Of a DNA stretch of 64,000 bases, positions 1 to 33,475 are shown in pieces. Source of the DNA: Myxococcus guangdongensis (lineage in GTDB: Bacteria; Myxococcota; Myxococcia; Myxococcales; Myxococcaceae). How positions within the stretch are numbered: position 1 is the stretch's first letter; each line of letters starts with the position of its first letter. A program made the position numbers and the translations under genes. The stretch lies in NCBI RefSeq assembly GCF_024198255.1, contig NZ_JAJVKW010000001.1:930001-994000 (forward strand). Direction: 5' to 3'. Under the pieces are notes generated by a model. The model was not told the DNA's origin. It did not search any database and saw only the letters and a list, made by a program, of their open reading frames with translations.

Positions 1-5
1 AGACC

Positions 6-2948
6 ATGACCGAGCAGTGCGACAGATTGGAGTCCTTCATCGACGGCGAGCTGGTGCCGGCGGATGCGGAGAACTTCCGCCACCACCTGACCGGCTGCGC
101 CGCGTGCGAAACACGGATGAAGGAACTGCTCGCGCTCGAGCTCCTCGCCGACGACGCCCTGCACGAACCCGGGGACGCCACGCTGGCCTTCGTCCCTCCA
201 CCTCCCCAGCTCAAGCGGCGCCGGAGCTGGATGATGGTGGTGCCGCTGGCGCTGGCCGCGGGCCTGGCGGCGTTCGTTCTCGTGACGCGGACCGATTCGT
301 CCTCCACCTCCCCCGAGCTGTGGCTGGGGCAGGACCCGGGCCGCACGCTCGAGGCCCGCCTCACCCATCCGGGCGCCGACCGCCATCGTCCCTACGAGGT
401 GATGCGCAGCGGCGGCAACTCGCCCCGCGCGTTGTCCCTGCGCGAGCTGGCGAAGCTGGAGGAGGCTGGTGACGAGCGGGGCATCGCGTCCGCGTACCTG
501 CTGCGCGGAGACCCCGCCCAGGCCGGCGCGTTCCTCGACAAGCTGCCCGCGTCCCCCGACCTGGACTCGGACCGCGCGGCGCTCGCCCTCCAGCGCGGCG
601 CCCACGAAGAGGCCCTGGCCCTGGTGGACCGCGCGCTGAAGCTGAAGCCCGGCCACCCCCAGGCGCTGTGGAACCGGGGCCTCGCGCTCGAGAAGCTGGG
701 ACTGTCCCTGCAAGCCGCGGAGGCCTTCGAGCAGGTGGCCGCGCAGCAGGAGCCGGGCTGGAGCCAGGAGGCCGCCGAGCGCGCCGCCGACCTGCGTCGT
801 CAGGAGGAGACCCAGCGCAAGGGATGGAAGGGCACCAAGGAGGACTGCGACCGGATGGTGGCCGGCGGTCCCGTGCTCGCCCAGGCCCAGGTGGAGCAGC
901 ACCCCGGCCTGTCCCGCCTGTGCTTCTACGATGCGCTGCGCACCGCCACCTCCGCCGAGCGCGTCGAGTCGCTGCGCCCCCTGGCCCGCCAGCTCGACAC
1001 CGTGGACGGCGGCACGCACCTGGAGGACGCCCTCCTGCGCGCGGCCCGCACGGACTTCCCGGCGCGCGCGCCCTTCGTCGCGGACTACGTGCGGCTGACG
1101 CGCAACGCGCTGTCTCCGACCGAGCTCGACGCCTTCATCGTGAAGCTGCGCGAGGCCCGCCAGGAGGACCTGCTCCTGGGCGCCCTGCTCTTCCCCAAGG
1201 ACTTGCGGCAGCACGAGCGTGAGTACCGCGAGCTCGCGCTGGCCACCCGGGACCCGTGGTTCGCGCTGCTCGCCGAGGAGCGCCAGGCCCGCGCGGACCT
1301 CCAGCGCGGTCAGGTTCCGCAAGCACGCACGCGGCTGGCCGAGGCGTTGCGCACCTGTCCTCCCGGCGCGCGCTTCAACTACCGCTGCCTGGAGCTCGAG
1401 CGGAACCTGGCCCTCGTGGAGCGGCAGCTCCACCGCCCCGTCGAGTCCCGCGCGCACGGACTTTTGGCGCTCGCGCGAGCCCGCGCGGGGCATGAGTGGA
1501 CCAAGGAGTGGAGGCTGCTCCAGGAGCTGGGCCAGGTGGCCCTCTTCCATGGAGACCTGTCCCTGGCGCGCGCCTACCTGGAGGAGAACATCCAGCGGCT
1601 GCCCGAGCGCTGCGCCGACCACGAGTCGGCCTACGTCAACCTCGCGCTCGCGTTCCACCGCACGCTCGACTTCACCAGCGCCCGGGAGCAGCTGGACCGC
1701 GCCGCGCGCTGTGGCAATCCGCCCTCGCTGGCGCGCGCCTTCGCCATCGCGGACCTGGCCCACACGCAGGCTCGCCGCGCCGAGGACACCGAGGTGCTGA
1801 CGCGGGGCCTGGAGGCGCTCAGGGCCACGCCGGCCCGACTGGAGACCGCGGGCGAGGGCGCGATGCTGCGCCACATCGAGGGCCGCTTCTTCGTCGAGCA
1901 GGACCGCCGTCGGGGACAGGCGCTACTGCGTCAGGCCATCGATGAAGCGGCGCCGCTCGTGGCGTCGGACGTCAACGCCCGCAAGGCGCGCGTGTACAGC
2001 TTCACGTCCCTCATCCTCGACGCCTCCCGACACGAGGAGCTGGAGCGGGCCATGGCCCTCTTCGCCGAGGAGCGCGCCCTGCCCCTGCCCGAGCGCTGCG
2101 CGCTGGGCGTCACCGTGGACGACGAGCGCACGGCCCTGGTGGCCCGCGACGCATCGGGGCGATGGGTCGGCCACTTCGACACCCAGCGCCGCCAGCGGCT
2201 GGAGAGCGTGGAGGGGCTGGTCCCCGAGCGCCTCGCCGCGGCCCTGCGCGACTGCCCGCATGTGGACGTTCTCGCGCGGCCGCCCGTGCTCGGCAAGCCG
2301 GACCTGCTGCCGCCGGACGTCGCCTGGGCCTACCGCGTGGGACCGACGCCCGCCGAGCCCACCGGACAGCCCTCGCGCCGGCTGGTGGTCGCGGATGTGA
2401 ACGCCCCCGCGGAGCTGCGCCTGCCCTCGCTGCGCGCCTGGCGCCCCTCGGAGAACGAGGACGCGACGCTGGCCACCCTGCGAGGCGCCTCCGCCACGCC
2501 GTCACACGTGCTGCAGGCGATGCGCGAGGCCACGGAGGTGCAGATTCACGCGCACGGCGTGGTCGACCCGAGCGCCGTGGATGGCTCGCTGCTCGTGCTG
2601 TCCCCCGAGGCGCAGGGCGGCCGCTACGCGCTGACGGCTTCGGACCTGCACGGGGAGCGGCTCGAGGGCCGGCCCGTGGTGCTGCTCGCGGCGTGTCATG
2701 CCGCGCACAGCAAGGCGTACTTCCACGAAACGTTCGGCCTGCCGGTGGCGTTCGTCGAGTCCGGCGCCCGGGCCGTGCTCGCCGCCACGCAGGAGATTCC
2801 CGACGCCGAGGCGTCGGACTTCTTCGAGCCGGTGCTGGCGCGCATTCGCGAGGGGCTGCCCGCGGCCCGCGTCCTTCGCGATGCACGACAGGACTGGCTC
2901 CGCAGCCGGGGAAGCGCCTGGGTCCGCCAGGTGCTCCTCTTCGAGTAG
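6..2948 (+). CDS. Membrane-anchored zinc-finger/TPR/CHAT-domain protein
   Basis: This 980-residue protein begins with a zf-HC2 (anti-sigma-like) zinc finger: C5, then H27-x3-C31-x2-C34. One hydrophobic segment follows at about residues 75-94. A long helical region has recognisable TPR units near 190-260. The C-terminus is a CHAT (caspase-like) domain, with the catalytic dyad candidates H848/H850 in a beta-strand ending His-Gly and C897 in the motif LLAACHA. CHAT proteins are cysteine-protease relatives used in signalling and defence. The zf-HC2 finger usually sits in the cytoplasm and binds an ECF sigma factor, so the CHAT part would be periplasmic if the single membrane span is real. The ATG at 6 lies at the window edge, so a sigma-factor gene may sit just upstream. 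The next gene starts 33 bases downstream. Domain calls are fairly secure; the target of the peptidase is unknown. Confidence 0.85.
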   Translation: MTEQCDRLESFIDGELVPADAENFRHHLTGCAACETRMKELLALELLADDALHEPGDATLAFVPPPPQLKRRRSWMMVVPLALAAGLAAFVLVTRTDSSSTSPELWLGQDPGRTLEARLTHPGADRHRPYEVMRSGGNSPRALSLRELAKLEEAGDERGIASAYLLRGDPAQAGAFLDKLPASPDLDSDRAALALQRGAHEEALALVDRALKLKPGHPQALWNRGLALEKLGLSLQAAEAFEQVAAQQEPGWSQEAAERAADLRRQEETQRKGWKGTKEDCDRMVAGGPVLAQAQVEQHPGLSRLCFYDALRTATSAERVESLRPLARQLDTVDGGTHLEDALLRAARTDFPARAPFVADYVRLTRNALSPTELDAFIVKLREARQEDLLLGALLFPKDLRQHEREYRELALATRDPWFALLAEERQARADLQRGQVPQARTRLAEALRTCPPGARFNYRCLELERNLALVERQLHRPVESRAHGLLALARARAGHEWTKEWRLLQELGQVALFHGDLSLARAYLEENIQRLPERCADHESAYVNLALAFHRTLDFTSAREQLDRAARCGNPPSLARAFAIADLAHTQARRAEDTEVLTRGLEALRATPARLETAGEGAMLRHIEGRFFVEQDRRRGQALLRQAIDEAAPLVASDVNARKARVYSFTSLILDASRHEELERAMALFAEERALPLPERCALGVTVDDERTALVARDASGRWVGHFDTQRRQRLESVEGLVPERLAAALRDCPHVDVLARPPVLGKPDLLPPDVAWAYRVGPTPAEPTGQPSRRLVVADVNAPAELRLPSLRAWRPSENEDATLATLRGASATPSHVLQAMREATEVQIHAHGVVDPSAVDGSLLVLSPEAQGGRYALTASDLHGERLEGRPVVLLAACHAAHSKAYFHETFGLPVAFVESGARAVLAATQEIPDAEASDFFEPVLARIREGLPAARVLRDARQDWLRSRGSAWVRQVLLFE

Positions 2949-3603: not shown

Positions 3604-6600
3604 TCAGGGGGACTTGCCGGCCTCGGCCTCGGGGGGAGACAGGCCCGAGAGCGTCTCCACGTAGGACGCGGCGACGCGCAGGAAGCGCGCGCCCTTCACG
3701 CCAGTGAGGTACTGGCGCTTCATCGCGCGGGTGGCGCCCACGTAGAACATGGCGCGGCGGATGCGCTCGTTCTCCCGCGCGTTGCGCTCCTTCGCGCCGG
3801 CCATCCAGTTCTCCACGGTGTCCAACGCGTCCAGGCCCGCGAAGAAGACGACGGGGCACTCGTGGCCCTTGCAGGAGAACACGGTGGTGGCGCGCACGTG
3901 GTCCACGCCGCTGACGCGGAAGTCCGTCACGTCGCGGCCGCCCTTGCCACCGTAGGCGTGCGCGGGCACGCCGGCCCGGTTGAGGGCCTCCGTGTACTGC
4001 GATGGCATGACGGGCGCGACGACGAGGATGTCGCCGGGGTGCACGCCTTCGTCGCGGATGAGCCGCGCCACTTCCTTGGCCACCTGCCGGGCCTCGCTCG
4101 CGCCCGAGGCGAAGCCGCGCACCTGGGGCAGCACGCCGCCGCGCTCGGTGGACTGCACGCGATAGAGCCCCTCCAGCGTCTCCTCGGGGAGCCACAGGAG
4201 CCCCTCGCGGGCGAGCTCTCCGGCCTTCATGTACTCGCGCATGCCCGGGTCGCTGGTGCCGTGCTGGCGCAGCGGGTCCAGCACCACGTTGAAGGCCACG
4301 TCGAGGATGTCGCGCGTGGCGCGGAAGGTCTCCTTGAGGATGCGGGTGCGGCCCCGGAAGGACAGCCCTTCCGGGAGCTGTTCCTTGAGCGCCTCGATGG
4401 GGACCTGGCCGTAGACGTTCTGCGAGTCGTCCATGAACAACTGGAGACAGCGCACCGGCTTGCCATCCTGCGCGACGTGGGGACGCACCAACGCGTGGAG
4501 CATGGCGAGCGCGCGGACGTCCATGTCCTGGGCCTCGTCGACGAAGACCCCGTCGAAGGACTCGGGCTCCACGCGGCGCAGCGCGCCCACGTGCTTCACC
4601 GTCACCCGGGCACGGAGCGCTCGCACACGCTCGCGGCCGGCGCGCTGGGCAATCGCCTCCACCAACAACTTCTCCACCAGGGGCGAGAGCGCGCGGTTGA
4701 AGAACGAGACGAGCACCTGCGTGTCCTCGTGCTCCAACAGATAGCGCGCCACCCAGTGGGCCAGGACGTACGTCTTGCCGCTGCCCGCGACCCCGCGCAC
4801 CAGGTGGTGTCCGTCATCGAAGCGGCGCTCGAAGAGGGACACCTGCTCGTGGGTGAACAGGGGCCGCGTGGGACGCGAGCCCTCGATTTCGCCGCCGAGG
4901 CTCGTGGGCGCGGCGGGAGGTGGTGGCGGCGGAGGCGGTGCCTCGCGCGGCAGGGGCAGCGCCTCCAGGCGGAGCGGCGAGCCGGGGAGGACTCGCAGAC
5001 GCGGCAAGAGCGAGAGGAAGCGCTGGGGGATGGTGGCGCCCCGGGCCTCGTCGCGCGAGGCGAGCACCAACAGGTAGTCGCGCGCGCGGCTGGCGGCCAC
5101 GTTGAGCATCGGCACCAGCGTGTGGGGTGGGAAAGGCCGGCCTCCAGCCACGGTGTCCACCAGCACCACGTCGTACTGGGTGCCCTGCTGACGGTGGATG
5201 GTGGAGGCGCTGAACGCGTCGCCCCGGAAGCCCGCGGAGTTGCCGAGCCTGCGCAGGAGCGAGGCCTGCGCGCGATAGGGCGTGACACACAGGACGCTGA
5301 GGCCGGCGCGCACGGCCTCGCGGGCGAGCGACACGGCGAGCTCGGCGGACAGCTCGCGCTGGTAGCCGGAGCCCGTCTCGCCTCGGCCGTGGGTGAGGCG
5401 CTTCGCGTCGCGGCTGAGGCCATCGAGCACCACCCATCCCGCGCGCGTCCCGGCGAACGCGGGCACGGGCGGGGCCTTCTCGGCGCGAGCCTTGACGATG
5501 TCGCCATCCTCGAGCGCGCCGCCGTAGCAGAAGTGGCTGACGACGCGGGCGATGTCCGGGTGCATGCGGTGCTGGGTGCGCAGCAGCAGCACGTCCGGGC
5601 GCGTGGCGTCGCGCACCGCGTCCTCCAGGTGGGACAGGCCGCTGGCGCGCAGCCACTTCTGGGAGCCGCGTCCGGCGCCCTCGGCCGCGCGGCTGACGGG
5701 GCCGATCTGCTTGGGGTCTCCAGCGAGCGTCACGCGCTCGGCCAGGGGGGCCATGAGCGCGGTGGCGGCGCGGGTCACCATGCCGGCCTCGTCCACGACC
5801 AGTCGCGCGAAGGTGCACTTGCCCTCGAGCTCCGACACCAGTCGCAGGGCGCGGTGGACGGTGAGGACCATGAGGGGGCAGTCGCCCTTCTCCGCCTCCT
5901 TGAAGGTGGGGTCCTTCATCTTGCCGCGCAGGCCGCGCAGCTCCGCCTGGAGCTTGGCGAGCTCGTGCGCGGGGCCGCCTCGGACACGCTGGAGGTACAG
6001 CTCGCGCTCGCGCTCCTCGATGCTCGCGCGCAGCTTGCCGCCCTTGGTGTCCTCGAGCGTGACGGTGGGCAGCTTCGCCAGGGCGTCGCTGGCGCCGGTG
6101 CCGCCGCGGAAGATGCTGCGCGCCAGGGGACGCAGGGGGATGGGCTGACGCTCCAGCAGGGCGCTGACGCGGAGGACGAGCTCATCGGCGGCGCGGTTGG
6201 TGGGGGCCACCGCGAGGATGCGCTCGTTGGGGAAGGCGCGCAGGGCGCGGGCGATGAGGTCGGCGACGGCGGTCGTCTTGCCGGTGCCGGGGGGGCCCCA
6301 GATGCAGCCCCAGGGCTGGGCCCAGAGACGGTCGGTCGGGAGGAGCTCGGCGTCCTGGGGACGCGGCGTGGGCGCGGGCTCGTCGCCACTGGCGCGGCGC
6401 AGGGACTGATGGAGCGCGGGCTGCCGGTCCTCGTACGCGGACGCGGCGGTGCAGAGCGCCTCGGCGAAGTCATAGGGCCGATAGCACCAGCGGTCGGCGG
6501 CGAGGGCGCGGCGGTCCACGTCGTCACCGTGGTCGGGGGCGGCGAAGACGCGGCCGGACTCGAAGTCGAGGTGGACGACGTCTCCGCCGAAGACGCACTC

Positions 6601-7122
6601 CTCACCGAGGAAGCCGAGCAGCGAGCCACCGGACCAGTCCGGGTCCGCGGCGGGCACGGGGACGAGGGACAACACGCCGGGGCCCTGGAGTGAGACCTGA
6701 CGCACGTCCTGGAGCAGCTTGGCGCGGTACTGGCTGCGCTCGGAGAGGAGCGCGTCGCTCAAGTCCTCGGGGAGGTATTCGGGAGGACGCCAGGCCTCGC
6801 GGCGCTTCCCGGTGGCGACGGCGGCCTGGATGACCTGACGCTCGGACGCGGTGACATCCGAGGGCGCGGAGACATCGCGAGCCGGTGGCTCCTCGGGTGC
6901 GGGGGCGTCCGTGCGCGGAGCAGGAGGCTTCGGGCGCTGTGACCTGGCGCGGGAGAGGGCCAGCAGCGGATTGGGCGAGCGCGGGAGGTCCTCGGGGACA
7001 GTGCGAGGGGACTTCGGTGGGATGGGCGCGTCGTCGTACTCGACGTGAAGCTCGCGGACGGAGTCATCCTTCCGTGGCGCGGGGCGCCCTTCGGAGACCT
7101 CGTTGTGCGTCCGGTGCGTCAT
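3604..7122 (-). CDS. Tandem superfamily-1 helicase (Upf1-like plus UvrD-like modules)
   Basis: This 1172-residue protein carries two full SF1 helicase motor sets. The first has Walker A GPPGTGKT (276-283), DEAG (444-447), GDPKQ near 469, QHRMHP near 517-522 and a motif VI NVAASRAR near 674; the RMHP signature is typical of Upf1-like SF1B enzymes. A polyproline linker (about 729-738) follows. The second has Walker A GVAGSGKT (777-784), DEAQD (862-866), an ETFRAT motif near 931 and YVGATRA (1127-1133), as in UvrD/Rep-type SF1A enzymes. Each motor would be an ATP-dependent translocase acting on DNA or RNA. The N-terminal 90 residues are proline-rich and probably disordered. The ATG at 7122 is the first good start. 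Most SF1 helicases have one such motor, so this is an unusual fusion. No nuclease domain is visible. Confidence 0.88.
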   Translation of the reverse strand: MTHRTHNEVSEGRPAPRKDDSVRELHVEYDDAPIPPKSPRTVPEDLPRSPNPLLALSRARSQRPKPPAPRTDAPAPEEPPARDVSAPSDVTASERQVIQAAVATGKRREAWRPPEYLPEDLSDALLSERSQYRAKLLQDVRQVSLQGPGVLSLVPVPAADPDWSGGSLLGFLGEECVFGGDVVHLDFESGRVFAAPDHGDDVDRRALAADRWCYRPYDFAEALCTAASAYEDRQPALHQSLRRASGDEPAPTPRPQDAELLPTDRLWAQPWGCIWGPPGTGKTTAVADLIARALRAFPNERILAVAPTNRAADELVLRVSALLERQPIPLRPLARSIFRGGTGASDALAKLPTVTLEDTKGGKLRASIEERERELYLQRVRGGPAHELAKLQAELRGLRGKMKDPTFKEAEKGDCPLMVLTVHRALRLVSELEGKCTFARLVVDEAGMVTRAATALMAPLAERVTLAGDPKQIGPVSRAAEGAGRGSQKWLRASGLSHLEDAVRDATRPDVLLLRTQHRMHPDIARVVSHFCYGGALEDGDIVKARAEKAPPVPAFAGTRAGWVVLDGLSRDAKRLTHGRGETGSGYQRELSAELAVSLAREAVRAGLSVLCVTPYRAQASLLRRLGNSAGFRGDAFSASTIHRQQGTQYDVVLVDTVAGGRPFPPHTLVPMLNVAASRARDYLLVLASRDEARGATIPQRFLSLLPRLRVLPGSPLRLEALPLPREAPPPPPPPPAAPTSLGGEIEGSRPTRPLFTHEQVSLFERRFDDGHHLVRGVAGSGKTYVLAHWVARYLLEHEDTQVLVSFFNRALSPLVEKLLVEAIAQRAGRERVRALRARVTVKHVGALRRVEPESFDGVFVDEAQDMDVRALAMLHALVRPHVAQDGKPVRCLQLFMDDSQNVYGQVPIEALKEQLPEGLSFRGRTRILKETFRATRDILDVAFNVVLDPLRQHGTSDPGMREYMKAGELAREGLLWLPEETLEGLYRVQSTERGGVLPQVRGFASGASEARQVAKEVARLIRDEGVHPGDILVVAPVMPSQYTEALNRAGVPAHAYGGKGGRDVTDFRVSGVDHVRATTVFSCKGHECPVVFFAGLDALDTVENWMAGAKERNARENERIRRAMFYVGATRAMKRQYLTGVKGARFLRVAASYVETLSGLSPPEAEAGKSP

Positions 7123-7326
7123 GTCGGCGGGCCCCGGGCCCCTCGGCCCAGGCCGGGTACGGGCGCGCGAAGGTAGGGGAGGCGTGGATCCACGTCAATG
7201 CACCCGCCAACAGAGTCTCGGTGTACTCACCCGTGCTCGGCTTGACAGTCCGGACGAGGGTCCGCCAGCGTCTCCGTCACGGCCTCTCGCTCACGCGCCA
7301 GGCCGCCATTCCAATGGGGGGACACC

Positions 7327-23019: not shown

Positions 23020-23214
23020 GTCCACCCCGTCCCTCATGCGCCGCGGGGAGTCAACGCCCGCGTGGCGCCACCTACCCCTGGAGTCCCTCGTCGCCCGGAG
23101 CCCCGAGCCCCGGCGCCTGGCTCGCCGCGCGTGTCGCACCCGGCAAGGCTCATGATGTGACAGGCCGGGTCGTGGCTGACCAGCGAGGTCCATGGCTTGT
23201 CATTCGTTGACTTT

Positions 23215-23241
23215 TAAACACGGAGCGTATGACAGTGTTTA
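23215..23241. promoter_or_regulatory. Inverted repeat in the Hint-lipoprotein promoter region
   Basis: TAAACAC (23215-23221) and GTGTTTA (23235-23241) form a perfect 7-bp inverted repeat with a 13-base spacer. The repeat lies in an AT-rich patch 38-64 bases before the ATG at 23279. A TTGACT (23207-23212) and TATGAC (23228-23233) pair, spaced 15, could be a promoter overlapping it. Confidence 0.4.
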
Positions 23242-23278
23242 TCCCGGGCTCAACCAGGCCCGCTCTGAGGGGGAGCTC

Positions 23279-25156
23279 ATGGATTTGACGCACAGTCGCA
23301 TCGCGACACGTCTCGTCGTTCTCGCAGGATGCCTGTCTTTGCTGCCCGGATGTCCTTGGGTCATCAAGCCCACGCCCAAGCCCAAGACGGTGGAGGAGCA
23401 GCGCGAGGTCGTGATGGCGGCCTTCCAGAAGCGTCCGCCTCACGAGGACTTCGTGATGCTGGACCTGGCCGATGACGACCAGTACGAGTACGCGCGCCAC
23501 CGGCTGCAGGAGGCCGCCGCCGCGCAGGTCGCCCAGGGTGGCCAGGACACGCCGGGACCGACGGTGGCTCGCGACTTCGCGCGCGCGCTGAAGACGCTGG
23601 ACGTCGCCCGGGCCAAGGCGGTGCGAGGCGGCCCGCGCCCCAAGCCCACCGACTGGGACTGCGACCACTTCATCCACGTGAACGACTCGCGCACGGTGGG
23701 CGGCGGCAAGGCGCAGCAGGCGGACAAGGCGCAGCAGGACAACCGTCCTTCGTTGATCCTCAACCCCTACGCCACGTGTGCGGGCGGCGCCACCCACGTC
23801 TTCACGGACGTGACGGCGTACGACAGTGACCTGTCCGGCAAGAAGCTGACGGTGCTGGCCAAGAGCGCCAACGAGGAGCACCACGACGGCAAGACGTTCG
23901 ACGACACGGCGGTGTCGGTGCGGCCGTCGATGGCGCCCGAGAGCAAGGTCGTCGTGGAGTCGCTGATGGTGGCGCACAACGAGCAGACGGGCGAGGAGCA
24001 CGTCTCGTTCGCGAGCCTGGACACGACGCTGACGCCCGAGCCGGTGAGCTTCACGATGGACCACCCCCGCTTCGCGAGCAACGAGCCCCGCTCGAACATC
24101 AACCTCACCACGTGCCAGCTGCGCGGCGGCGCGGACTGTGACTACGCCATGGTGACCAACGCCCAGGGCACCCTGGCGCCCTACCCCCAGCAGCCGGTGG
24201 GGCTGGCGCTGCGCAAGACGGGCAACCCCTGGACGGGAGACCCCGCGGCCTACTTCCCGTTCCAGGCGGGGCAGACCTTCGACATCACCAACATCTACGT
24301 CCCCACGCAGCTCACGTTCGACGCGGGCGCGATGTCGCAGCCCTGCGTCATCCAGGCGATGAAGAACGGCCCGACGACGACGCGGATGCGCCTCATCAAG
24401 ACGGACTCGGGCGGCACCTGCACGACGCTCGCGGACCTGTCGGACCTGTTCGTCATCAATGGGAAGACGGCGAGCATCCAGCGGCTGGTCAACCTCTCGC
24501 AGAACACCACTGCCAACGGTGGCGCGGGCTGCACGATGGAGAAGATCGTCAACGAGCCCGTGGTGATGTCGATGACCCTCTACTCGATGGCGACGTGTGG
24601 CGGCGCCGCCGCGGTGCCGCGCCTGACGACCTTCACGAGCACGGCGCTGCCCACCAACCCCTTCAACCTCAACGTGCTCAACAGCTGCATGGCGGAGGGC
24701 ACGAAGGTGACGCTCGCGGACGGGACGCGGGCGGCCATCGAGACGCTGAAGGTGGGCGACAAGGTCCGCTCCAACGCGAGCGGCCGGGTGCTGACGGTCC
24801 AGGACTTCATCTTCGGGCGGGAGCCCAAGCCGCTGGTGCGGCTGCGCGATGACCAGGGCCACGACCTGCGGCTGACGGAGAAGCACCCGGTGCTGCTCAC
24901 CTCCGGGCTCGTGGTGCCCGCGGACAAGGTCCAGGTGAAGGACCAGGTGCGCACCGAGTCCGGCACGGCCTTCATCACGGCCACCGAGCGCGTGCCGTAC
25001 GACGGCAAGGTCTACAACCTCAAGCTGGGCACGCCCGAGGAGCTCGAGTCGCTCGGGCCCAACGAGCGGACGCTGTTCGCCGATGGCGTGCTCGTGGGCG
25101 ACGACACCATGCAGCGCGAGCTGACCTCGCCGCGCCGCGCGTCCGCCACGCCGTAG
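23279..25156 (+). CDS. Lipoprotein with C-terminal Hint (hedgehog/intein-type) domain
   Basis: The 625-residue protein has a lipoprotein signal ending LLPGC (Cys near residue 24), which fixes the start at 23279. A large unrecognised exported region spans about 30-465 and is rich in Thr, Asn and Asp. The C-terminal 155 residues are a Hint domain. C470 in NSCMAEGTKV is the block A nucleophile and T533-E-K-H536 is the block B TxxH, so the residues for an N-S acyl shift are present. The C-terminal intein His-Asn pair is absent, and the domain ends in LFADGVLVGDD, as in other bacterial Hint proteins. Hence it may self-cleave or attach to a nucleophile, as hedgehog does, rather than splice. A strong hairpin follows the stop. 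Confidence 0.85.
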   Translation: MDLTHSRIATRLVVLAGCLSLLPGCPWVIKPTPKPKTVEEQREVVMAAFQKRPPHEDFVMLDLADDDQYEYARHRLQEAAAAQVAQGGQDTPGPTVARDFARALKTLDVARAKAVRGGPRPKPTDWDCDHFIHVNDSRTVGGGKAQQADKAQQDNRPSLILNPYATCAGGATHVFTDVTAYDSDLSGKKLTVLAKSANEEHHDGKTFDDTAVSVRPSMAPESKVVVESLMVAHNEQTGEEHVSFASLDTTLTPEPVSFTMDHPRFASNEPRSNINLTTCQLRGGADCDYAMVTNAQGTLAPYPQQPVGLALRKTGNPWTGDPAAYFPFQAGQTFDITNIYVPTQLTFDAGAMSQPCVIQAMKNGPTTTRMRLIKTDSGGTCTTLADLSDLFVINGKTASIQRLVNLSQNTTANGGAGCTMEKIVNEPVVMSMTLYSMATCGGAAAVPRLTTFTSTALPTNPFNLNVLNSCMAEGTKVTLADGTRAAIETLKVGDKVRSNASGRVLTVQDFIFGREPKPLVRLRDDQGHDLRLTEKHPVLLTSGLVVPADKVQVKDQVRTESGTAFITATERVPYDGKVYNLKLGTPEELESLGPNERTLFADGVLVGDDTMQRELTSPRRASATP

Positions 25157-29015: not shown

Positions 29016-29912
29016 TCACCCCGGCGGAAGCACCACCGCGGTCTCCACGCCGCGCCTCCGCCGCCAGGACTCCCACGCACGCAGCAGTCGCGGATACAGC
29101 GCGCGGAAGGCGACGAACCACACGACACCCGCGAGCAGGTCGACCGCGTAGTGGTAGCGCAGCACCAGCGTGGAGACGAAGAGCATCACCGCCACCGGCA
29201 ACATCCCCCGGAAGCGCCACGGATGCGCGAGCCTGTCGTGCGCGAGCAACACCAGCGTGATGTACACGTGCAGGCTCGGGAACACATCGAAGGTCGACGA
29301 GCCGTGGGCCACGACGGCCGCGTTCAGCCGCGTCACCCACCCGCCCTCCACGGGCACGGTGAACAGCTCGGGATACGCCACCAGGGGCCCCACCGCGGGC
29401 ACCAGGTAGTAGCCCACGAGCCCCGGCACGTAGGCGGAGAAGACCTGACCGAAGAAGGCCTCCGCGCGCTCCCGCGAGCCCACCACCGCCCACGCCATGG
29501 CCAGGTGCAGGTAGACGTGGAACGACAGGTAGCTCGCGCTGAACACGTCGCTCACCGCCGCCGAGCTCCAGCGCTGCAGCCACACCGACGGCGTGCTCCC
29601 TCCGAACACCCACGCGTCCACGGCGAACAACGCGGCATCCCGCGTCGGAAGCCCGAGCACGGGGACGGTGTCCTTCACCGAGGCATAGAAGAAGAACGTC
29701 ACCCCATAGGCCAGGAGCAACCGCACGCGGAAGAGGTGCCCCCAGCGCTCCAGGCGTGAGAGCCCCGCCACCGCGAGGATGAACAGGAGCGTCGCGCCGA
29801 GCACCTGGAGGAAGACCACCGAGCGCGCACCCGCGACGACGAGGAGCCCGCACGACAGCGCCCCCCCGAAGCCCGTGAGCAGCACCTCGTGCAGGAAGGG
29901 ACGCTCAGACAT
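29016..29912 (-). CDS. PAP2-superfamily membrane phosphatase/transferase
   Basis: The 298-residue polytopic protein carries the late PAP2 motifs FPSLHVYITLVLL (Ser-Leu-His) near residue 210 and RYHYAVDLLAG (the second catalytic histidine) near 250. The early K-x6-RP motif is not evident, which fits the AUR1/Ipt1-like branch of PAP2 enzymes. Members remove or exchange phosphate groups on lipid phosphates at the membrane, for example phosphatidate to diacylglycerol or inositol-phosphate transfer. The ATG at 29912 lies 8 bases inside the end of the desaturase gene, so the two are translated together. Confidence 0.82.
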   Translation of the reverse strand: MSERPFLHEVLLTGFGGALSCGLLVVAGARSVVFLQVLGATLLFILAVAGLSRLERWGHLFRVRLLLAYGVTFFFYASVKDTVPVLGLPTRDAALFAVDAWVFGGSTPSVWLQRWSSAAVSDVFSASYLSFHVYLHLAMAWAVVGSRERAEAFFGQVFSAYVPGLVGYYLVPAVGPLVAYPELFTVPVEGGWVTRLNAAVVAHGSSTFDVFPSLHVYITLVLLAHDRLAHPWRFRGMLPVAVMLFVSTLVLRYHYAVDLLAGVVWFVAFRALYPRLLRAWESWRRRRGVETAVVLPPG

Positions 29913-30840
29913 CCGGGGATGCGGCGCGGCGGGCCTCGCGCATCAGCGAGCCACTCAGCACGCCCCACACGAACGAGAAGTACGACGGGATGAAGGGCGC
30001 GCCCTGCGCGACGAGCTCGGCCCGCAGGGACTGGTGCAGCGCGGGCAGGTTGTACCAGGGCACCCTCGGATACAGGTGGTGCTCCAGGTGGTAGTTCTCG
30101 TTGCACATGAAGAAGCGCGTCACCGGATTGGACAGGATGGTCCGCGAGCCCCGGACGGGATGCGTGTTCTCCGTCAGGAAGGTGTGCTGGCTCATGCCCC
30201 GGATGTTGACCAGCGTGTTGATGATGACCATGGGCAACACCCAGGCCTGCAGCAACACCGGCCACGGCACGAAGCGCGCCGCGAGCACGCCCGCCACGAG
30301 CACCATCGCGACCTCGAACCCAATCCATCGCCGCTCGGACGGCGTGCCGTGCTTCCAGCCCAGGATGGGAATCATCGTGATGTACGCGGGGTAACCGAGC
30401 AGCAGTCGCCCAAGGTGCATCGCCAGCTCCAGCCAGCGCCGCCCCGTGTAGTTCGCGTAGTGGTCGGGGTCCAGGCCACCGCCCAGGTCCCGGTGGTGCC
30501 GCAGGTGCAACACCTTGTACGCCGCGAAGTTCTGGAGCACGGGCCAGGCGCACAGCATCCCGCCCAGGCGATTCAGCCAGGGCCGCGGGGACAGCCCACC
30601 GTGCACCGCCTCGTGGGTGAACAGGCTGATGCCATGGAGCGCGGCCGCCGAGACCAGGTAGAGCGGCAGCCGGATGAGCCAGCTCGCCACCGAGTCGCCG
30701 TGCCTCGCGAGCAGCACGAGGAGCCACGCCGACACGCCCTGGAGCAGGAGGAACAGGGCGAGCCGGGGCAGATGACGGGCGTCGATTCGCTCCAGCTCGC
30801 GCAGGGACTCGGGAGACAGGGCTGCGGAGGGCGTGGGCAT
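29905..30840 (-). CDS. Membrane fatty acid desaturase
   Basis: The 311-residue protein has the three histidine boxes of membrane diiron desaturases/hydroxylases: HEAVH (76-80), HLRHH (112-116) and NYHLEHH (250-255), each next to hydrophobic helices. It would introduce a double bond or a hydroxyl into an acyl chain or another lipid, using O2 and an electron donor. The box spacing and the HxxHH third box fit the FADS/DesA family, though carotenoid ketolase-like or sphingolipid enzymes share it. It is first in a two-gene operon with PAP2 and divergent by 63 bp from the DUF3419 operon. Confidence 0.88.
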   Translation of the reverse strand: MPTPSAALSPESLRELERIDARHLPRLALFLLLQGVSAWLLVLLARHGDSVASWLIRLPLYLVSAAALHGISLFTHEAVHGGLSPRPWLNRLGGMLCAWPVLQNFAAYKVLHLRHHRDLGGGLDPDHYANYTGRRWLELAMHLGRLLLGYPAYITMIPILGWKHGTPSERRWIGFEVAMVLVAGVLAARFVPWPVLLQAWVLPMVIINTLVNIRGMSQHTFLTENTHPVRGSRTILSNPVTRFFMCNENYHLEHHLYPRVPWYNLPALHQSLRAELVAQGAPFIPSYFSFVWGVLSGSLMREARRAASPDV

Positions 30841-30857
30841 GGCGCGTCCTGATGACT

Positions 30858-30863
30858 TACAAT
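30858..30863 (+). promoter_or_regulatory. Possible -10 box for the DUF3419 operon
   Basis: TACAAT lies at 30858-30863, about 40 bases before the TTG start at 30904, in the 63-bp divergent gap. No clear -35 box is seen. Confidence 0.25.
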
Positions 30864-30903
30864 CCCGCTCCGAGTCGAAGCAACCCTCGCCCCCACACCG
30901 ACC

Positions 30904-31878
30904 TTGAGCGCACCTCCTCCTCGTCTGAAGTTCGCGGTCGTCCGTGAAGACCCGGCGCTGGAGCAGGTGCTCATCGAGCACACCCGGGCACGCGCGCTCC
31001 TCACCGTCGCCTCCGGCGGCTGCACGCTCCTCACGCTGGCGCGAGACAACCCCACGCTCGAGCTGGTGGGCTTCGACTTCAACCCCAGGCAGCTCGAGCA
31101 CGTGAAGGAGAAGGCGCGCTGCCTCGGCACCGCCGCGCCCCAGCACTTCAACGTGCTCTCCCACGACGCCGCGGGGCTGAATCAGCGCGGCGAGTTCGAG
31201 GGCCTGTTCCGCACGCTGCGCCTGTTCGTGGAGGAGTTCGTGGCCCCTCGCCGCGAGCTCAACACGTTCTTCGACCCCGGGGTCGCCGAGTCGGAGCGCG
31301 AAGCGCTGCGCGCGGGTTGGTTCGCTTCGCACTACTGGCCCGTCGCCTTCCAGCTCGCGTTCGCGGACCCGTTCCTGCACGCCATGTTCGGTCCCGCGGC
31401 CACCCAGCACGCCCGCCCGGGCTCCTACCCTGGTTACTTCCAGGCCCTGTTCGAGCGGGGACTCCGACGCGAGGACGCCTGCCGCAATCCGTATCTGCAA
31501 CACGTGCTGCTCGGCGCCTACCGCCCCGGCGACGCGCCCGGTTATCTGCGCGCCACCGCGCCGCTCCAGGTCTCCCTCGTCCAGGGCTCGCTGCCGGATG
31601 TGCCCGACCTGGGCCGCTTCGATGTCATCTCCCTGTCCAACATCTTCGACTGGTCCGATGACTCGCTCGTCGAACAGTGGGCCACGCTGCTGTCCCAGAA
31701 GGCGCGCCCCGGCTGCGCGGTGCTGCTTCGCCAGCTCAACAACCAGCGCGACTTGAGGCGCTTCTTCCACCCCGCCTTCGCGTTCGACGACGCGCTCGGC
31801 GCGCGGCTCCAGGCCCAGGACCGCAGCCTGTTCTACGAGCGCGTCGAGGTCGGCTTCCGACGGACGTCGGGTCCATGA
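30904..31878 (+). CDS. DUF3419 protein, BtaA-like aminocarboxypropyl transferase
   Basis: The 324-residue protein has the DUF3419/BtaA signature. The SAM-binding loop TVASGGCTLLTLA (34-46) is followed by the strand end VGFDFNPRQLEHV (55-67), and a late ISLSNIFDWSDD segment lies near 240. BtaA moves the 3-amino-3-carboxypropyl group of S-adenosylmethionine onto diacylglycerol, making diacylglycerylhomoserine, the precursor of betaine lipids. Whether this shorter relative uses diacylglycerol is unknown. The start is TTG at 30904 with no upstream alternative in frame. The usual partner BtaB (N-methyltransferase) is absent; instead a GNAT and an HDO follow in coupled frames. Confidence 0.82.
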   Translation: MSAPPPRLKFAVVREDPALEQVLIEHTRARALLTVASGGCTLLTLARDNPTLELVGFDFNPRQLEHVKEKARCLGTAAPQHFNVLSHDAAGLNQRGEFEGLFRTLRLFVEEFVAPRRELNTFFDPGVAESEREALRAGWFASHYWPVAFQLAFADPFLHAMFGPAATQHARPGSYPGYFQALFERGLRREDACRNPYLQHVLLGAYRPGDAPGYLRATAPLQVSLVQGSLPDVPDLGRFDVISLSNIFDWSDDSLVEQWATLLSQKARPGCAVLLRQLNNQRDLRRFFHPAFAFDDALGARLQAQDRSLFYERVEVGFRRTSGP

Positions 31879-32795
31879 GCGACCTCCGCTACGTGGTGCT
31901 CCGGCCCGACACGCTCGGGCCCTACGTCGAGCGGCTGCGAGGACTCGAGCGCGGAATCGAGTACCCCATCGCCGACGGCGCCGACCACTTCTTCATCGAC
32001 CACGGCCCCGACTACCACCCGTTCTTCTCGTCCATGGGAGAGGCGTACTTCCTGCTCGCCCTGCGCGGCGAGGAGCTGCTCGGCTCGGTGACGGGAATCC
32101 TGAGGCAGGTCCACCGGGGCGCCCGCGCCCTGCCCGGGTTCTACATCTGCGACCTCAAGGTGGCGCCCCACGCGCGCGGCTCGGGGCTGGCGCGCGGACT
32201 CATCCTCCGGGGGCTCACCCACCTGTTCCGCATCCCCGCCCTGCGCGGCATCCGGTTCCTCTACGGCGCCGCCATGCGAGGCGCGCGGGGCGACGTGATG
32301 CGCACCGCGCGCGGCTGGAACCCGCTGCGGATGGGCCGCCCCCAGAGCCGGCTCGCGCTCTACTTCACGCCCCCCTCGCGCCTCGCCACGTTGGAACCGG
32401 GAGACGCGCCCGGGTGTCCGCGGGGTGAGGGGCTGGTGCTCGGCCCCGCACCGTCCCGCCGGCTCGAGGGCGCGGGGTGGTGCGCCACGTCCGGGAGCAA
32501 GGACCTCCAGTTGATGTCGACGCAAGCCCCTTGGCCGCTCGTGCACCTGGCCGCGCCACCCTCCGCGTGGACCCGAGGCTGGGGGCACTACCTCCAGACC
32601 TGTGGCGAGGAGCTCACCGCGCAGAGCCCCCAGTCGCTCGCCTGCTTCGTCATCGACGAGCGCTTGGAAGACCACGTCCACTGGCTGCGAGGACAAGGGG
32701 TTTCCCCCGACGCGGTGTGCACCGTCTACTCTCTCGACCTCACCCGACTCAAAGGGTCCCCGGCATGGGTGCACCTTCCCTCCTCCGAAATCTGA
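31875..32795 (+). CDS. GNAT-family N-acyltransferase with extra C-terminal domain
   Basis: Residues 1-150 form a GNAT domain with the core strand FYICDLKVAPHARGSGLARG (89-108), which includes the acyl-CoA-binding R/Q-x-x-G-x-G/A loop ARGSGLA. The remaining 155 residues match no domain I know and contain a GWCATSGSKDLQ segment. It acylates an amine from acyl-CoA; the substrate is unknown. Its ATG overlaps the DUF3419 stop as ATGA, and its 3' end overlaps the HDO gene by 31 bases. It probably acts on the product of one of these enzymes. Confidence 0.8.
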   Translation: MSDLRYVVLRPDTLGPYVERLRGLERGIEYPIADGADHFFIDHGPDYHPFFSSMGEAYFLLALRGEELLGSVTGILRQVHRGARALPGFYICDLKVAPHARGSGLARGLILRGLTHLFRIPALRGIRFLYGAAMRGARGDVMRTARGWNPLRMGRPQSRLALYFTPPSRLATLEPGDAPGCPRGEGLVLGPAPSRRLEGAGWCATSGSKDLQLMSTQAPWPLVHLAAPPSAWTRGWGHYLQTCGEELTAQSPQSLACFVIDERLEDHVHWLRGQGVSPDAVCTVYSLDLTRLKGSPAWVHLPSSEI

Positions 32796-33475
32796 ACCTG
32801 CGCCACCACATCGGCGCGCTGAAGGCCGAGTGGAACGCGCGGGAGTCCTGCGCGTACCTGCGCGCGCTGCGCGACGGCACCTTCGAGCGAGGGGACTTCG
32901 TCGAGACGCAGCGGCAGTTCTTCCACGCGGTGGCGCACTTCACGCGGCCCATGGCCGTGCTCGCCAGCCGACTCCCCCGCCCCGAGCTCCGCCTGCCGCT
33001 GGTGGAGAACGTCTTCGACGAGCATGGGCGGGGCACGCTCTCCCACGGCCATGAGCACACGTTCCGCTTGCTGCTCGAGCGGCTCGGCGCCTCGCTCGAC
33101 GGGCTCCACGACGAGACGTGCTGGCCGGAGGTGCGCAAGTTCAACGTCGCGCTGACGGGCATCGCCGCCTTCGAGGCCACGCACACCGGGCTGGCCGTGT
33201 TCGGCATCATCGAGGACCTGTTCAGCGGCATCTCCCTGGAGCTGGGCCAGGGCATCATCGCGCGCGGGTGGCTCCCGGCGGAGCAGGTGGTGCACTACCC
33301 CACGCACGCGACGCTCGACGAGGAGCACGCGGACGGGTTCTACCGCCAGCTCGACGCGCCCTTCGCGAGCGACGCCTCGGCCCGGCGGGACATCCAGCAG
33401 GGCCTCCTGCTCGGAGGTCACCTCTTCCTCGGCCTCTACGACGACCTCCACCGGGCCCGCCGCCGTCGGGCGTGA
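32765..33475 (+). CDS. Haem-oxygenase-like diiron oxidase (HDO) family enzyme
   Basis: The 236-residue all-helical protein shows the metal-ligand pattern of the TENA/CADD-like HDO enzymes: a VENVFDEHGRG helix (E81/E86) with H94/H96, an E150 in AVFGIIEDL, and H181-x3-D185-x2-H188 (HATLDEEH). Members use a diiron centre and O2 for N-oxygenation, C-C cleavage or olefin formation on amino acids or fatty acids. The start ATG at 32765 lies inside the GNAT gene. Sequence alone does not tell which reaction it performs. Confidence 0.8.
   Translation: MGAPSLLRNLNLRHHIGALKAEWNARESCAYLRALRDGTFERGDFVETQRQFFHAVAHFTRPMAVLASRLPRPELRLPLVENVFDEHGRGTLSHGHEHTFRLLLERLGASLDGLHDETCWPEVRKFNVALTGIAAFEATHTGLAVFGIIEDLFSGISLELGQGIIARGWLPAEQVVHYPTHATLDEEHADGFYRQLDAPFASDASARRDIQQGLLLGGHLFLGLYDDLHRARRRRA

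Follow-up and report, generated by a model that had tools for sequence, protein, structure and literature searches.

Within a 64,000-nucleotide stretch of Myxococcus guangdongensis DNA (positions 930,001 to 994,000 of contig NZ_JAJVKW010000001.1; hereafter the window), five genes stand as two divergent groups that form one co-inherited biosynthetic unit. On the plus strand, a DUF3419 gene (30904-31878; 324 aa, TTG start), encoding a BtaA-type S-adenosylmethionine (SAM)-dependent protein and presumed aminocarboxypropyl transferase, is followed by a GNAT gene (31875-32795; 306 aa), whose product has a predicted N-myristoyltransferase (NMT)-like tandem fold and is presumably an amine N-acyltransferase, and by the gene for a heme-oxygenase-like diiron oxidase (HDO; 32765-33475; 236 aa). 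The minus strand carries the genes for a membrane fatty-acid desaturase-like protein (29905-30840; 311 aa) and a PAP2_3-family membrane phosphatase or phosphotransferase (29016-29912; 298 aa), and the 63 bases between the desaturase and DUF3419 genes (30841-30903) presumably seat both promoters. DUF3419 and GNAT overlap by 4 bases, desaturase and PAP2 by 8, and GNAT and HDO by 31 given an HDO start at the ATG at 32765, where the similarity of its relatives begins; the reading frame stays open farther upstream. These coordinates match the layout described by a first-pass annotation, namely three coupled plus-strand frames 63 bases from a divergent desaturase-PAP2 pair. Pfam scores (curated cut-offs in parentheses) were 69.4 bits (28.2) for DUF3419 against PF11899, 70.6 (28.9) for HDO against PF14518, 162.3 (29.7) for the desaturase against PF00487, and 52.1 (27) for PAP2_3 against PF14378, and the GNAT scored only just above the cut-off of PF00583 (22.6 bits vs 20.7). 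All five proteins fell below the cut-off of every NCBIfam model.

Conservation of the three plus-strand genes (the trio) extends far beyond Myxococcus, which answers the earlier suggestion that a DUF3419-GNAT-HDO grouping be looked for in myxobacterial genomes. We searched 96 genomes of the window's family and, with profiles, 195 Myxococcota genomes. The DUF3419 protein query matched 41 of the former at E≤0.001, including 27/27 of the window's genus, and the DUF3419 profile matched 50 of the latter at that threshold and 38 at E≤1e-100, which we term strong matches. The GNAT profile matched 37 of these 38 genomes at E≤1e-100, with one weak match elsewhere (G187), and the HDO profile matched the identical 37 at E≤1e-87, 11 more genomes carrying weaker, more distant HDOs. 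The sole exception, G094, is an 89% complete genome whose contig stops 13 bases past the DUF3419 match. The trio genes adjoin in 36 of the 37 genomes, the spacing in G010 being within about 400 bases. A scan of further genome contigs yielded 15 loci, every one with the trio; nine duplicate genomes already searched and hence add no new evidence, and the other six (L040-L045), at 50-60% identity, are new and have no PAP2 or desaturase orthologues, the upstream sequence at L044 amounting to only about 1 kb. The entire five-gene unit was found at L038 (BNCN01000001.1) with 72% identity. Among the papers listed by searches of the open-licence PubMed Central (PMC) literature, none described this gene combination, and as far as these searches show, the enzyme families are known and their combination is undescribed. 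At L040 the gene order is HDO-DUF3419-GNAT, and an asparagine-synthase-type amidotransferase gene directly after the GNAT (L040 9836-11836) could amidate the product carboxylate.

Orthologues of PAP2 (E≤1e-50) and of the desaturase (E≤1e-60) are confined to one and the same set of 30 among the 96 family genomes, all of which bear the trio: the 27 of the window's genus plus G040, G041, and G043. Order and orientation of all five genes are identical in the 27 genomes of the genus (the window included) and in the three others, which belong to two neighboring genera, and the divergent gap between aligned starts measures 13-163 bases in 30/30. Recurrence of the layout in these 30 genomes confirms that the five-gene arrangement is real and beyond chance. 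PAP2 had one extra weak match (G013, 7.5e-20), and weaker desaturase paralogues fell under the threshold. In genus g8, two of seven genomes have all five genes, and the other five lack every one of them by the cut-offs applied, although G037 and G039 among these have a distant HDO at 1e-12. Seven of the 37 family genomes with strong DUF3419 matches (G010, G012, G050, G087, G089, G092, and G094) do not have the pair. Because the pair is found only together with the trio but the trio also occurs without the pair, the three genes form the core and PAP2 and desaturase a co-inherited extension, present in some Myxococcaceae only; this weakens the earlier reading of all five as one lipid cluster. 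Both proteins belong to their superfamilies, the PAP2 protein by PF14378 and by the sequences FPSLH and RYHYAVD, which we take to be PAP2 motifs, and the desaturase by PF00487 and by HEAVH, HLRHH, and HLEHH, presumably its histidine boxes.

A more distant version of the trio lies on the Mycobacterium riyadhense plasmid NZ_OY970457.1 (L096 12007-17668), where the order is DUF3419-HDO-GNAT and the next gene encodes a resistance-nodulation-division (RND) family transporter that matches MMPL. Identity to the window proteins is 25.7% for DUF3419, 36.5% for HDO, and 32.3% for GNAT (measured on one half of that protein). MmpL proteins export lipids and siderophores. The cassette sits between PE/PPE genes and recombinase/integrase genes and is possibly a mobile version of the module in Actinomycetota. 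Considering the whole set of loci, we lean, with moderate confidence, toward a unit that makes a SAM-derived, N-acylated, oxidized amphiphile, i.e., a lipid or lipid-like amide; a lipophilic product is favored because of the NMT-like fold of the GNAT, the desaturase-PAP2 pair, and the MMPL neighbor.

The DUF3419 protein, which the first-pass annotation had called BtaA-like, merits that name by its PF11899 domain and its SAM-binding motif SGGC, and it also has a DFNP motif; in a 15-protein alignment, the ED, SGGC, D-W, and DRS motifs are common to most rows, trio and BtaA-type. An excerpt of PMC10491745 describes BtaA as an aminocarboxypropyl transferase. The window protein aligns to positions 10-70 and 122-380 of the 385 in PF11899, and several BtaA-like proteins elsewhere in Myxococcota match the model in one long stretch (e.g., 8-383). 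Its predicted structure (mean predicted local distance difference test score, or pLDDT, 90.8) combines the core of a class I methyltransferase with a helical insert, and its best structural match reached a Z score of 12.6 with a root-mean-square deviation (rmsd) of 2.7 over 161 residues. Among the 50 matches listed in each of two structure comparisons there was no BtaA, one of the two comparisons listing a single CntL (7c9k), and a DUF3419 profile search of the PDB returned nothing at E≤1. A tree was built from 55 rows (51 of them distinct; three other loci gave no blast hit and were left out); in it, 19 trio rows form a clade with support of 100/99, which grows to 21 rows with G156 (100/93) and to 22 with the mycobacterial protein (95/75), a placement that is tentative on account of the long branch. 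The BtaA rows of the tree are presumed, none being experimentally proven, and one of them, L142, has an adjoining methyltransferase gene. A grouping of the trio proteins with relatives of known unrelated function, a danger foreseen at the outset, was not seen, as the clade lies inside no such group.

No BtaB methyltransferase was found among nine proteins scanned (the cluster's own five plus four neighbors; the scan did not extend to the rest of the genome), in agreement with its reported absence. The canonical BtaA-BtaB route to betaine lipids is disfavored by the tree and by this lack of a methyltransferase neighbor: the window protein shares PF11899, SGGC, ED, DW, and DRS with BtaA, but its clade is separate, about 50 profile positions are missing from it, and its partners are a GNAT and an HDO rather than BtaB. 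A betaine-like variant would have diacylglycerol made by PAP2 take the aminocarboxypropyl group, the amine of the resulting homoserine lipid being N-acylated and the lipid then oxidized by the HDO. Membership in PF11899, the co-inheritance of PAP2 and desaturase with the trio in 30 genomes, and the lack of any separate methyltransferase among the nine proteins all suit such a lipid; we nevertheless consider it rather unlikely, as the seven pair-less family genomes and loci L040-L045 put diacylglycerol from PAP2 outside the core, and the DUF3419 clade stands apart from the presumed BtaA that adjoins a methyltransferase. The separate clade and the missing segment weaken the earlier proposal, by analogy with BtaA, of diacylglycerol as acceptor.

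Other DUF3419 genes occur in varied surroundings. A BtaA-like one in G169 (L085 4096-9142) is flanked on one side by an AMP-binding ligase gene and on the other by an MMPL gene, a lipid-like setting, and another in G128 (L086 4007-6752) adjoins a wax ester synthase/diacylglycerol acyltransferase (DGAT) gene. On a Roseinatronobacter plasmid (L098) DUF3419 occurs with UbiA, phosphoenolpyruvate (PEP)/pyruvate-binding, and AMP-binding genes, and on a Rhizobium plasmid (L143) with CoF synthetase and MBL-fold genes. The second myxobacterial DUF3419 group has a small gene just upstream, which at L088 (4497-5027) is a polyketide-cyclase/SRPBCC match; the small genes before DUF3419 at L087, L090, and L091 resemble it by eye.

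The GNAT was classed as an acyltransferase in the first reading, and PF00583 together with a predicted tandem GNAT fold agrees with this. The model (pLDDT 87.7, built on a 13-row alignment) superposes on NMT with a Z score of 17.5 and an rmsd of 3.6 over 256 aligned residues at 12% identity (2..306 on 154..496), and all of the best 50 structural matches listed were NMTs; as modeled, the tandem GNAT fold, like that of NMT, takes up the entire chain. NMT Pfam models gave no match for the window GNAT at E≤0.01, where only PF00583 and PF13527 were listed, and neither did PF13444, the aminolipid N-acyltransferase family. Bacterial aminolipid N-acyltransferases of the OlsB type share PF13444 according to an excerpt of PMC11631085; the presumed fatty acylation of an amino-acid amine would resemble the OlsB-type pathways, but the window GNAT, with no PF13444 match, differs from their N-acyltransferases. 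It likewise differs from NMT, to which it is linked by the predicted full-length fold and the fixed chain end described below, in having no NMT Pfam match and about 12% identity, and in being a bacterial protein in a metabolite-type gene unit.

The C-terminus of the GNAT is fixed. Among 45 distinct readings, 44 reach the stop codon. Ile is the last residue in every one of these, preceded by Glu in 42, and the other two end in SDI and STI; 27 of the 44 come from one genus and are therefore not independent. The mycobacterial GNAT ends in AEI, and a stand-alone relative in G187 (L110 about 6397-7212; 27-30% identical over the matched parts) ends in Glu-Val. The overlapping HDO frame was considered as the cause of the constant ending and rejected, as the ending is kept where overlap is impossible: at nine distinct loci the HDO starts after the GNAT stop (L030, L031, L032, L042, L044, L045, L076, L077, and L079, with L039 on the same contig as L030 and counted once), and at L040, L096, L080, and L110 the HDO lies upstream of the GNAT or not beside it. 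Overlap of the two frames is possible in six rechecked sequences of genus g1, including the window, and at L041, L043, L081, L082, and L083. Conservation runs to the final residue, and the modeled chain ends level with position 496 of NMT. An excerpt of PMC7048800 describes the carboxylate of Gln496, at the C-terminus of NMT, as the catalytic base and notes that truncated NMTs stay active via a water channel. The fixed ending suggests that the GNAT may be an amine acyltransferase that employs its own C-terminal carboxylate in catalysis. Because Eis enzymes also use a C-terminal carboxylate, the ending does not fix the length of the acyl group.

Two other products come into question at this point. 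The trio may make a small polar acetylated metabolite, with an Eis-like GNAT using acetyl-CoA, a soluble acceptor for DUF3419, and the desaturase and PAP2 as unrelated tailoring enzymes. The tandem GNATs 4my3 and 2hv2, which we take to be of the Eis type, also match the GNAT model (by Foldseek, with a lower TM-score), and of five NCBIfam matches for the desaturase, all far under cut-off, the top one was the arginine hydroxylase GntB at 72.3 bits; the desaturase family also includes hydroxylases. With NMTs making up all of the best 50 structural matches listed, and with desaturase, PAP2, and MMPL neighbors indicating a lipophilic product, we judge an acetylated metabolite unlikely. That the trio instead modifies a protein or peptide by NMT-like N-terminal acylation, yielding no free metabolite, would accord with an NMT-like predicted fold over the full length of the GNAT; it is very improbable, as the GNAT matches no NMT Pfam model at E≤0.01 and its conserved partners are metabolite-type enzymes.

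The third enzyme keeps the six presumed metal ligands of the diiron oxidase that it had been supposed to be. E86, H96, E150, H181, and D185 are invariant in 18/18 aligned relatives and H188 is present in 17/18, and this 3H/3C set of ligands, together with PF14518, places the protein in the HDO family. The ligands are in register with those of CADD. A profile search of the PDB matched CT610/CADD at 3.5e-13, 9pj4 (a p-aminobenzoic acid, or pABA, synthase) at 1.9e-8, BesC at 1.2e-7, and HrmI at 3.3e-7, and a search with the single sequence returned HrmI as the sole match at E≤1. At the sites of the sacrificed Tyr27 and nearby Lys152 of CADD (residue numbers presumed), the profile residues read from the alignment are l and i, and on this ground a CADD-type pABA synthase was rejected; because the sacrificed residues are not kept, the HDO is probably an ordinary one acting on an outside substrate. 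Although it has PF14518 and six ligands in register with CADD, BesC, and HrmI, it differs from them as a subfamily of its own linked to DUF3419 and GNAT, with a residue other than Tyr at the CADD Tyr site. Amino acids and fatty acids are the main substrates of characterized HDOs, whose reactions include N-oxygenation, C-C cleavage, desaturation, and rearrangements, and in substrate-bound structures the substrate gives iron ligands (excerpt of PMC13108848). Because substrates ligate the iron, the target here may be a free amine before acylation or a carboxylate after it. HDO relatives without the trio (L107 and L108) lie near a flavin adenine dinucleotide (FAD) or GMC oxidoreductase gene; in the one neighborhood examined on Streptomyces plasmids with HDO relatives, DUF3419 and GNAT were absent. 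A second HDO copy in G056 (L106 7104-7781), 57% identical to the window HDO, lies away from the trio and adjoins an NmrA-like gene.

An N-oxygenating HDO would open a route to a hydroxamate-type metallophore or lipid chelator, in which N-hydroxylation of an amine by the HDO would give a hydroxylamine for the GNAT to acylate, as in hydroxamate siderophores, on a nicotianamine-type scaffold built by aminocarboxypropyl transfer. The MMPL transporter of the Mycobacterium cassette could then serve siderophore export, and HrmI was the one match to the single HDO sequence. HrmI and SznF are N-oxygenating HDOs (PMC13108848, in excerpt), and aminocarboxypropyl transfer serves metallophore synthesis (PMC10491745, likewise). 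Set against this, CADD and BesC outscore HrmI in the profile search, and a scan of 12 proteins flanking 10 pair-less trio loci, a small sample, showed no receptor or iron-uptake gene; we hold a metallophore to be unlikely.

For the favored amphiphile, the steps may be drawn as follows. DUF3419 would transfer the four-carbon amino acid (aminocarboxypropyl) unit of SAM, rather than a methyl group, to an acceptor; the NMT-like tandem GNAT would acylate an amine of the product, with its own C-terminal carboxylate as base and most likely with a long-chain acyl-CoA; and the diiron/O2 center of the HDO would oxidize the aminocarboxypropyl-derived group or its acceptor, before or after the acylation. 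In Myxococcus and close relatives, the desaturase presumably adjusts the acyl chain, and PAP2 may supply or process a lipid phosphate. From the first-pass proposal of an N-acylated, oxidized homoserine lipid, or of a small molecule made by aminocarboxypropyl transfer, the gene unit and the enzyme families are supported; the diacylglycerol acceptor and the place of PAP2 and desaturase in the core are weakened, and acylation before oxidation is one of several possible orders. The logic of N-acylating an amino acid and oxidizing it recalls the tyrazolone and N-acyl dehydrotyrosine pathways, in which oxidation falls to a nitroreductase-family protein, unlike here, and for which the excerpt of PMC12479983 names no SAM-derived amino acid.

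Several observations weigh against this scheme. PF11899 membership by itself would be no proof of aminocarboxypropyl transfer, and the trio DUF3419s form a clade separate from both rhizobial presumed BtaA rows (L142 and L144) and lack a segment of about 50 residues that is kept in BtaA-type, G156, and mycobacterial proteins in the 15-protein alignment. Reactions of HDOs appear too diverse for prediction from sequence, and, given the matches to 4my3 and 2hv2, the acyl group could be acetyl. In G092 the HDO sits on a contig separate from that of DUF3419 and GNAT. The 12 flanking proteins include no common fourth partner, and the clear lipid-type genes among them number two, the MMPL gene of L096 and a desaturase gene at L077, a separate and distant one that precedes the trio by about 0.9 kb.

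Two unrelated contexts were considered. Anti-phage defense was rejected, PADLOC giving only one weak match (DUF3419, E 0.0071), and a scan of viral contigs gave no relative. Elsewhere in the window, a large protein (23192-25156) has a C-terminal part that by eye is like Hint (intein-type) domains.

It is possible, and we put this forward tentatively, that the unit defines an undescribed class of lipid amide or chelator built from the aminocarboxypropyl group of SAM by a portable three-gene module of BtaA-type transferase, NMT-like N-acyltransferase with a catalytic C-terminus, and diiron HDO. Such a module would occur in several lineages of Myxococcota and, next to its own MMPL exporter, on a mycobacterial plasmid, and in Myxococcus it would be extended by the desaturase and PAP2. 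If so, BtaA-type enzymes would gain a role outside betaine lipids, HDOs would gain a new class of substrate, and bacteria would have an amine acyltransferase of N-myristoyltransferase build. With the unit present in every one of the 27 genomes searched from that genus, these social predators may share a widespread product that has been overlooked.

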